From Oscillospiraceae bacterium (GTDB lineage: Bacteria > Bacillota > Clostridia > Oscillospirales > Ruminococcaceae): DNA of 64,000 nucleotides. Of this stretch, positions 55,401 to 64,000 are shown piece by piece. A model generated the notes under the pieces. That model saw only the letters and a list, made by a program, of their open reading frames with translations. It did not search any database and was not told the DNA's origin. Within the stretch, counting starts at the first letter, position 1, and the number at the start of each line of letters is the position of its first letter. A program made the position numbers and the translations under genes. The stretch lies in NCBI GenBank assembly GCA_017472735.1, contig JAFUOD010000003.1, positions 116,559-180,558 on the forward strand, given 5' to 3'.

Positions 55401-55775
55401 ATGAGAAAGACTATATTTGAGCAAATGGGCGGTACATATACAAGGGTAGGAGATTATTATTTACCTAATCTTCTACCTGCTGAGCAAGAAGAACAGTCTA
55501 TTGGTGTATGGGGACAACGACACCTACGGTATATTAAGCAACACCGCAAGGTTTTGTATGTGAATTTGCTTACAAGCGGCAAACTGAACTCACACCTTGC
55601 AGAGATTGACGAGCAAGCGGAAGATATGTTTTTTCGGCTTGTAAATCAAATGGCAGAGCGTGAGGGCGTTACTGAACAACTCAAAGCAGAAAACCAAATG
55701 GAGTGGGTTGGTCGGATGAATAACATTCGCAGCAGAGCAACGGAGATTGTAAATGCAGAATTGATATTCGCATAA
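55401..55775 (+). CDS. tnpV: TnpV transposon protein
   Basis: A 124-residue protein with the features of TnpV from Tn4451-type mobilizable transposons: EQMGGTYTRVGDYYLPNL at the N-terminus, RYIKQHRKVLYVNLLTSGKL, and QMAEREGVTEQLKAENQMEW then MNNIRSRAEEI-type C-terminus. It is complete and has GGAGG before ATG 55401. Its job is not established in the family. No recombinase or relaxase is nearby on this side, so the cluster is a remnant or a passenger set. Its last codons and terminator belong to the 37-bp direct repeat seen again at 56660. Confidence 0.88.
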   Translation: MRKTIFEQMGGTYTRVGDYYLPNLLPAEQEEQSIGVWGQRHLRYIKQHRKVLYVNLLTSGKLNSHLAEIDEQAEDMFFRLVNQMAEREGVTEQLKAENQMEWVGRMNNIRSRATEIVNAELIFA

Positions 55776-62694: not shown

Positions 62695-62721
62695 AAAGGC
62701 ATCGCTACGGCGATGCCTTTG
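62695..62721 (+). terminator. Terminator of the phosphatase-MMPL operon
   Basis: AAAGGCATCGC (62695-62705) and GCGATGCCTTT (62710-62720) with a 4-nt loop. Confidence 0.85.
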
Positions 62722-62797
62722 CTTATGCCTAAACCAAATAGTATTCCCACATTTTCGAAAAATATTCAAAAAGTGTTCGTGTTGGGGATAGAAAATA

Positions 62798-62826
62798 TTG
62801 ACAATAGAACGTTCGTTCTGTATAAT
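62798..62826 (+). promoter_or_regulatory. Consensus promoter with LexA-like box in the spacer
   Basis: TTGACA (62798-62803), 17-bp spacer, TATAAT (62821-62826). The spacer contains GAACGTTCGTTC (62807-62818), which fits the Bacillota LexA box GAAC-N4-GTTC and is an inverted repeat AGAACG/CGTTCT. A bound repressor would sit between the -35 and -10 boxes. Confidence 0.72.
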
Positions 62827-62832
62827 ATAAGT

Positions 62833-63084
62833 GTGACGGTTTGACCGTCACGGACAACTGAATATTGATGTAAGATTGAGAATGTGGCAAGAGCCACCCA
62901 ACGCTTGCGGTATGCTAAGAGAAAATGCCGCTACCTATCACTCTATGCTTTTTGGTACTGTTAGCGAGTGAATAGGTGCAAAAACAGTCCCGTCTTTGAA
63001 TTTCAAAGCCGTTACATAGAACATCATTTTGAAGCGAGAGCAACGCTCCCGCCGATTCTTGATGTCTGTGTAGCGGCTTTTTTG
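62833..63084 (+). ncRNA. Candidate structured RNA at the start of the mobile element
   Basis: No reading frame explains this interval. Complementary segments in order: GTGACGGT/ACCGTCAC (62833-62851); GTGGC/GCCAC (62884-62897); GCGGTAT/ATGCCGC (62907-62931); CCTAT-CACTC/GAGTG-A-ATAGG (62934-62976); CTTTGA/TCAAAG (62994-63008); ACATAGAACATCA/TGATGTCTGTGT (63014-63071, with wobble and bulge). GCCGCTAC (62927-62934) also pairs perfectly with GTAGCGGC (63070-63077), closing a multibranch loop, and six T follow (63078-63083). The start is set by the consensus promoter at 62798-62826. The GCGGTAT hairpin and the closing stem share 62927-62931 and cannot form together. I do not recognise the class. 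Confidence 0.6.
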
Positions 63085-63443
63085 TTTTGCTTTTTTCAAA
63101 AATAAATTTTCCAAATCCCGAAATAAGTCAGCAATTAAATATTAGAGAAGAAATTTGCAAAAAGATTGGAATTTTTGCCCTTCTCGCTGCCTACTCATTG
63201 AGGAGTGAAAAATTGAAACACTGAAAAGTTTTTTAAAATGGGTGTGCATTCACCCTCTCCCATTCCAAACAAGTGAGGGATTAAAAGCCGAGTGTACTTA
63301 ACAACTGAATGACCGTCTGAATGGGATACGACTTTGCGAGGATATGAGCAGGGCAACGCCGCTGAAAAAGCAGGGGCAGGAACGACATTCGGGTAGAACG
63401 GCAAAGGGATTGCAAGACCAAAATTATGAAAGGAGCAACTAAA
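63085..63443 (+). other. Non-coding stretch before the accessory gene
   Basis: No gene is seen in these 359 bp. It contains an AT-rich part, an AATGGG/CCCATT inverted repeat around 63235-63270, and GGAGG-like sites not followed by an open frame. It may be a leader or control region of the mobile element. Confidence 0.5.
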
Positions 63444-63761
63444 ATGCAAATGACAAAAGGCGAACGGCTTGTAGCCGAAATGCTTGGAGATATACCGAAC
63501 AGGAATGAACCGGTACTGACCGAAAAACACCCTTTTCTTCGGAAGGTAATAAAGTTTATGCAAGACAGACGGGAATGGCAAGGATCGGCAACCGAACTTT
63601 TGAAAGAAATCGGTGACAGTTATACCCCACCCAATACCGTCACCAAGTTATTAAATCGGTACGAATATGACTGCTTTAATAAAAGGGATATTACTATCAA
63701 ATTCTGCCGTACCAACCGAAAAAGGATAATCCATTTAACCAATTATGGATACCAAAAGTGA
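63444..63761 (+). CDS. Small accessory protein of a mobilizable element
   Basis: A 105-residue basic protein (KGERLVAEMLGD, HPFLRKVIKFMQDR, WQGSATELLKEIGD, TPPNTVTKLLNRY, RIIHLTNYG). The second half resembles a winged-helix DNA-binding fold. Proteins of this type lie just ahead of mobC and relaxase genes in clostridial integrative elements. ATG 63444 has AAAGGAG close by. A +1 frame stays open past the stop for 39 codons and encodes a D/S/G-rich tail, so a frameshift may have shortened the protein. Function unknown. Confidence 0.75.
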   Translation: MQMTKGERLVAEMLGDIPNRNEPVLTEKHPFLRKVIKFMQDRREWQGSATELLKEIGDSYTPPNTVTKLLNRYEYDCFNKRDITIKFCRTNRKRIIHLTNYGYQK

Positions 63762-63840: not shown

Positions 63841-63936
63841 TACCTGACCACAGGTATAACGAGCATCGGATTTTGACACCAAAATCCAATCCACACCCTA
63901 AAGGGATGTGGACTATACTCAGGGGAAGTCCCCTGA
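63841..63936. other. Candidate origin of transfer (oriT)
   Basis: Four inverted repeats in 96 bp: TACCTG/CAGGTA (63841-63856), GGATTTTG/CAAAATCC (63868-63887), CCACACCC/GGG-A-TGTGG (63891-63911) and TCAGGGGA/TCCCCTGA (63919-63936). They stand directly before a MobC-like gene, the usual oriT position. The nick site cannot be assigned. Confidence 0.55.
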
Positions 63937-63964
63937 ATACCCCTAAAGAAAAGGAGATGATTTT

Positions 63965-64000
63965 ATGAAAAACAAGGATTCCGTTCGTATTTCCGTGCGG
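63965..64000 (+). CDS. mobC: MobC-like relaxosome protein, first 12 codons
   Basis: The gene runs off the right edge. ATG 63965 follows AAGGAGATG. The visible residues are MKNKDSVRISVR, the usual opening of MobC-type ribbon-helix-helix proteins that load the relaxase at oriT. Position right behind the inverted-repeat cluster supports this. With only 12 residues the call stays tentative. Confidence 0.6.
   Translation, partial: MKNKDSVRISVR

Follow-up and report, generated by a model that had tools for sequence, protein, structure and literature searches.

A covarying RNA family between a strong promoter and a long terminator hairpin, found mostly ahead of mobilisation genes in Clostridia

The window analysed here, a stretch of 64,000 nucleotides from an Oscillospiraceae bacterium (GCA_017472735.1, contig JAFUOD010000003.1, positions 116,559 to 180,558), carries near its 3ʹ end about 250 nucleotides enclosed by a promoter and a T-run. 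What is transcribed from this segment (62798-63084), and what could it do for the genes that follow? The original prediction was a structured RNA with its own terminator and mutually exclusive stems, which might be a riboswitch, an attenuator or a regulatory RNA of a mobile element. The structured RNA, the promoter and the terminator were upheld by our analysis, whereas the mutually exclusive stem was not.

The sigma-A promoter (62798..62826, + strand), which had been called perfect, matches the consensus at 12 of 12 positions, with TTGACA at 62798-62803 and TATAAT at 62821-62826 separated by 17 bases. Of the 52 aligned homologues, 47 have a promoter scoring at least 10/12 directly 5ʹ of the RNA, compared to a mean of 7.9 in shuffled sequences; these shuffles, like those used for the 5ʹ hairpin and for the promoter scan between terminator and operon, preserved base composition alone. 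Judging from the position of the -10 box, the RNA would start near 62833. The stretch 62833-63084 has the appearance of a genuine structured RNA: its MFE was -90.1 compared to a shuffled mean of -62.2 (z -5.5), and none of 200 shuffles was equally good. It closes with a long GC-rich hairpin followed by a U-run (63005..63083, + strand, about -38 kcal/mol), the form of an intrinsic terminator, and the U-run ends at about 63083, in agreement with the predicted T-run end and own terminator. This hairpin was missing from the + strand of a simple terminator scan because the scan considers no loops other than those of 3-8. Across the 47 homologues with a completely read hairpin, its value was -30 to -50 kcal/mol.

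Partial BLAST relatives in the own genome and family provided a first alignment. The covariance model R1, made from the window and four relatives with sequence group A left out, recovered five group A sequences outside the model (E 5e-8 to 6.5e-13). At E <= 0.1, R1 matched 15 of 396 family genomes, 12 of them judged real and the other three (L049, L051, L052) appearing to be hairpin look-alikes. A pattern scan keyed on the small hairpin P4 and the terminator 5ʹ arm yielded 57 stretches from named genomes and one viral contig, and conservation at these two elements is therefore biased, as the search pattern was built on them. Together with L002, the second copy in the own genome, and the window, this gave 60 sequences, of which 52 distinct ones were aligned; left out were L079 (rejected as a chance match), L080 and L094 (cut by contig ends), L097, L101 and L106 (5ʹ part truncated or divergent), and two identical duplicates. 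The model R2, built from these 52 sequences, matched two places in the own genome, 4 of 391 class genomes and 2 of 299 phylum genomes (own genome counted in both). It also found sequences outside its alignment, namely L101 (E 3.5e-10), L050 (E 9e-8), and a further member adjoining the element block2 described below (L182, 1822-1975, - strand, E 8.7e-8).

The carriers were mostly MAGs and isolates of Clostridia (Merdimmobilis, Yanshouia, Lacrimispora, Faecalibacterium), and also Holdemania and Traorella. Such scattered occurrence fits a mobile element, and the identical cores in records of differently named organisms (L055/L107 and L082/L091) fit transfer. No DNA relatives were found in plasmids and E. 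coli genomes; in phages, a single unannotated record matched in part (11%), within block2, and nothing was obtained with L089. In L011 and L015, the terminator hairpin occurs elsewhere without the remainder of the RNA.

The homologues fell into four sequence groups, A (n = 18), B (n = 20), W (n = 12, including the window) and D (n = 2). The hairpins P2 and P4 and a loop-to-downstream pseudoknot are common to all four, and P1 and P3 to A, B and W, with no P1 assigned in D. The predicted 5ʹ-terminal hairpin, GTGACGGT-TTG-ACCGTCAC in the window (62833..62851), has predicted counterparts at the transcript start in 48 of 52 leaders (exceptions L056, L061, L110 and L111) with a sequence that varies from group to group, a count in which the start position was wrongly placed for L062 and L068. 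P1 (62884..62897) has pairs that covary in groups A, B and W, and P2 (GCGGTAT...ATGCCGC, 62907..62931) was paired in 97.8% of cells, with double changes at five of six pairs. The loop of P3 (62933..62977, alignment columns set per group by hand) holds the 5ʹ strand, ACTGTT (62957..62962), of a pseudoknot that had been missed by the original prediction; its 3ʹ strand is AACAGT (62983..62988). The pseudoknot changes its sequence between groups and retains its pairing (ACUGUU/AACAGU in W, UUCUG/CAGAA in A, ACUGUC/GACAGU in B, UUUCG/CGAAA in L092); it pairs in almost all rows, with a fixed U.C mismatch at one position in 12 of 12 W sequences. P4 (CTTTGAATTTCAAAG, 62994..63008) was paired in 52 of 52 sequences, which lends no independent support because it is nearly invariant and lies within the search pattern. 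All these elements are on the + strand.

On a plain MAFFT alignment of the 52 sequences, 78.2% of cells were paired, compared to 72.4% after shuffling and 31.7-46.5% in slid controls, and these values understate the pairing of group A because P1 and the pseudoknot are one column off there. Cells changed on both sides numbered 135 versus 49.8 ± 8.5 in shuffles; further standard pair types showed no excess in the same alignment (41 versus 42.5). With columns set per group by hand and a few poorly pairing positions left out (B 47-61 and 128-154, A 51-58, W 140-141), there were 85 G.U cells versus 22 A.C cells, indicating that the + strand is the working strand. The longest ORFs within the 52 RNAs were short and variable (median 31 aa, range 9-67), and no conserved reading frame was found among them. 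The proposed structured stretch, and the covariation suggested as its check, were thus confirmed by P1, P2, P3 and the pseudoknot, which recur with sequence changes; by this measure the shape of a non-coding RNA of about 250 bases is kept by evolution. The RNA family is well supported, and its function is what we infer below.

The statement that the RNA matched no known class also held. Rfam 15 gave no match to the RNA when searched with 62700-63450 of the window up to E 10, the sole matches being three weak eukaryotic families on the - strand (E 1.1-6.6), and at the gathering score there was nothing in the RNA of eight homologous loci. Membership in any Rfam 15 family was accordingly rejected by covariance-model search. 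Our searches of open-licence PMC papers listed none on this RNA.

The claimed switch fared differently. It relied on GCCGCTAC (62927-62934) pairing with GTAGCGGC (63070-63077) in exclusion of P2, and among 47 testable homologues this stem was confined to the window, where it spans 8 bp; in the others it did not exceed 6 bp. The remaining five of the 52 drop out of the count because reading stopped at an inner U-run. In the MFE structure, GTAGCGGC pairs instead with the terminator 5ʹ arm AAAGCCGTTACATAGA (63005-63020), and forcing GCCGCTAC/GTAGCGGC costs 14.2 kcal/mol in the window (-76.6 versus -90.8). We take the eight complementary bases for chance complementarity. As the pairing of P2 versus terminator is not conserved, the architecture of an attenuator or riboswitch with conserved mutually exclusive stems was rejected, this stem being the sole alternative compared. 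No conserved upstream competitor of the very long terminator hairpin was found in that comparison, so that any control would need to target the polymerase itself.

The surroundings of the RNA point to gene transfer. Of the 59 loci, 36 carry mobilisation genes (MobC/relaxase-type) in the same orientation downstream of the RNA. Another 12, including the window, end within 1 kb, which leaves 36 of 47 uncut loci with such genes; seven have none in 1.4-6 kb (some of these being remnants), and four (L082, L090, L094, L098) have recombinase or untyped ORFs only. The downstream products are MobC/NikA-like proteins and relaxases of PF03432, PF03389 and PF01076, with serine recombinases further on. The genes 5ʹ of the RNA differ from locus to locus; in the window they include TnpV (55401-55775) and, as cargo, an MMPL transporter and TetR. 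The first operon ORF of the window (63426..63761, + strand) belongs to no Pfam family and is 64% identical to its positional counterpart in L096, and a MobC-like gene begins at 63965..64000 (+ strand), where it is cut by the contig end, its start resembling by eye those of cluster 3 (NikA-like). A segment 5ʹ of this start (63858-63945, AACGAGCATCGGATT...) has an inverted repeat and is possibly an oriT. With mobilisation genes following a covarying structure, the description as a regulatory RNA of a mobile element was supported.

Between the terminator and the first operon gene, no sigma-A promoter above chance was found in 41 loci, the best scores averaging 7.4 over all 41 and 7.8 over the 39 loci with any candidate, compared to 7.8 in shuffles. 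The term attenuator is compatible with this lack of a second recognisable promoter.

A second conserved leader element, block2 (63300..63402, + strand in the window), lies between the RNA and the operon and begins with ACAACTGAATG. From 36 extracted sequences (14 sites had no readable end), 35 were aligned after L074 was left out; the element covaries, nine of its 17 pairs showing double changes. At E <= 0.01 the block2 model had matches in 10 of 245 class genomes, weak ones in three of these. Block2 begins with a boxA-like motif, which takes the full form CCTTGAAAATTGAATG in some elements. Its distance from P4 is 205-316 bases in eight of nine W-type elements versus 84-109 in the others. Hairpin-like units CCCTTCTCGCTGCCTACTCATTGAGG occupy this spacer in W-type elements (63170-63270 in the window), and about three such units were seen by eye after the RNA of L073; a repeat search of the W-type spacer at length 16 found nothing. 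By eye, block2 also precedes an integrase-type ORF in L031, and in L087 and L036 a small reading frame, M(S/N)E(F/L)SCLHG.E..Y..CDDE, is inserted inside it behind a ribosome-binding-site-like AGGAGGA. At 11 readable block2 sites without a nearby RNA, an 11/12 promoter stands about 60 bases 5ʹ in three (L031, L032, L174), and no good promoter was found in the remaining eight; the argument from the missing operon promoter is no more than suggestive for this reason, and the mob genes could be served by promoters without the sigma-A consensus.

Within the promoter of the window lies GAACGTTCGTTC (62807..62818, + strand), which agrees with the LexA pattern GAACNNNNGTTC at 8 of 8 positions. The host genome has 18 LexA-type sites, one of them 18 bp 5ʹ of an IMS-family polymerase gene and another 179 bp 5ʹ of a Mur-ligase gene that is followed by lexA. 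Given these two sites, GAACGTTCGTTC is very likely an SOS box of the host. A LexA-like box (at least 7/8) was present in only 15 of 52 family promoters, two pairs among the 15 being identical RNAs, and LexA control across the whole family was rejected.

Directly after the 5ʹ hairpin lies ACAACTGAATA (62854..62864, + strand), part of a motif which we take, in name and role, to be boxA. At most one mismatch to AAAAYTGAAYA, the rRNA-leader form, which represents the 3ʹ part of the motif only, was found in 44 of 54 RNAs versus 43 of 2160 shuffles (2.0%); the site was absent in five of the 54 (L060, L063, L070, L085, L093). Host rRNA leaders have a promoter, a hairpin and then TTGAAAATTGAACA 152-168 bases 5ʹ of 16S in seven of the eight loci where the start of 16S could be read; the own genome accounts for three of these. 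The leader RNA resembles this antitermination signal in its order of promoter, 5ʹ hairpin and boxA-type motif, a likeness by sequence alone, but the rRNA leaders carry TTGAAAATTGAACA, whereas the RNA carries only the 3ʹ part.

A related motif was seen upstream of xis in Tn916-type loci, as CTTTGAAAACTGAATA in L161 and L168, as CTTTGACAACTGAATA, with one change, in L170 and in a weaker form in L164; of four plasmid stretches around xis, L168 and L170 were examined, and among seven Xis loci the motif was found in two, both from one genome. In L168, a Tn916 relative, CTTTGAAAACTGAATA (1446-1461) starts 124 bases after the orf8 stop, and the active 452-bp canT fragment is described as starting 126 bases after it (PMC11658703). 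There canT is described as a structured, most likely cis-acting RNA by which the Tn916 transfer genes are transcribed past a terminator, and its structure is, by the authors' account, not pursued further (PMC11658703). The main text uses none of the terms boxA, NusB and Nus factor (PMC11658703). The published S3 mutation of canT would fall in GTGATAATGATACTCC, not in the boxA-like CTTTGAAAACTGAATA. The leader RNA would be like canT in being a structured RNA that lets polymerase pass a terminator into transfer genes, but canT lies between orf8 and xis, and the leader RNA before mob genes. R2 reached at best 13.5 bits (E 0.18) with L168 and E 0.21 against the Xis loci, the block2 model R3 gave E 0.69 with L168, and nhmmer indicated no clear kinship; its one weak match joined the block2 model to L090 (E 0.015). 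No profile-level link between the RNA and either block2 or canT emerged from these searches. Membership in canT fails at the level of sequence, and any likeness would lie in the way of working. By eye, the own genome has a canT-like leader in L138 (G000:C29:3054), with CACCTTGAAAACTGAATAG followed by TATAATGATAC.

A further parallel, by description, is conAn of pLS20, in which an RNA (conAn2) at the start of the transfer operon is reported to let polymerase pass terminators; it differs in having a protein partner, ConAn1 (PMC8955417). The EAR RNA and the HK022 put RNA are described as processive antiterminators that consist of RNA only. EAR is an Rfam family, unlike the leader RNA, which matches none.

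The comparisons above establish a covarying fold, promoter and terminator signals, a place before the operon and no other recognisable sigma-A promoter. The reading we prefer, which we hold tentatively at a little under even confidence, is a leader RNA with a conditional terminator before the mobilisation operon of serine-recombinase-bearing mobilisable elements of Clostridia, read through by antitermination. The strong promoter, with its LexA box in the window, would produce a transcript that starts with the hairpin and the boxA-like sequence, folds into P1, P2, P3 and the pseudoknot, and then reaches the very long intrinsic terminator. Most transcripts would end there, so that a small RNA builds up and the operon stays off, and expression of the transfer genes would require polymerase to get past the terminator. 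The boxA-like site and the folded domain may render polymerase resistant to termination in the manner of Tn916 canT, pLS20 conAn2 or rRNA leaders, and probably the terminator is passed by antitermination of the Nus/canT style. This reading would explain why a promoter and a terminator flank the RNA while no second promoter follows, why it begins with a boxA-like site, and why it is spread in modular fashion over relaxase types.

Its close rival, which we regard as possible at a clearly lower probability, is a stand-alone small RNA of 250 bases that acts in trans by binding a protein or pairing with a target, with the mob genes transcribed independently or leakily. Such a discrete RNA would account for most of the same facts, since its ends are set by a near-consensus promoter with a 5ʹ hairpin and by a very strong terminator; in seven of the 59 loci it is followed by a long sequence that contains no mob genes, and the wide P4-to-block2 interval of the W-type elements fits as well. 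It leaves unaccounted for that the operon has no sigma-A promoter above chance and that the RNA precedes it, on the same strand, in most loci not cut within 1 kb.

The other alternatives appear improbable to differing degrees. A ligand-sensing riboswitch, in which an aptamer of P1, P2, P3 and the pseudoknot decides whether the terminator forms, would suit a compact, covarying, pseudoknotted domain directly 5ʹ of a terminator, but we consider it unlikely, as the proposed alternative pairing is not conserved, the loops expected to form a binding pocket vary among groups A, B and W, and transfer genes rather than a metabolic set follow. Slightly less likely still is that the terminator merely insulates the transfer genes from transcription of cargo or host genes and the rest has no role: the upstream genes do differ between loci, and T1 of Tn916 is such an insulator (PMC11658703), but the promoter in front and the covarying P1-P3 and pseudoknot would be left unexplained. 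Least probable, and in our view very doubtful, is a single-strand origin or another ssDNA structure for transfer or rolling-circle replication. It would be in keeping with a strongly folded, strand-specific segment in a transfer region, yet near-consensus double-stranded promoters stand directly 5ʹ of most of the RNAs, a U-run follows the last hairpin, and the segment accompanies three relaxase families.

Returning to the conditional-terminator leader, a broader and more speculative proposal, which we think rather unlikely as it stands, is that mobile elements of Firmicutes took over the Nus-type start signal of host rRNA, so that the RNA, block2 and canT would represent three types of leader headed by boxA and giving a terminator-resistant polymerase, here gated by SOS and an adjoining terminator. 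Our results suggest that the RNA helps control the switching-on of the elements' transfer genes. A covarying RNA family outside Rfam 15, which travels with three relaxase families, thereby joins the regulatory leaders of gene transfer among gut bacteria. If it is an antiterminator, rRNA-style transcription control, the SOS response and gene mobility would be linked, and boxA would be a concrete sequence clue to the mechanism of canT.
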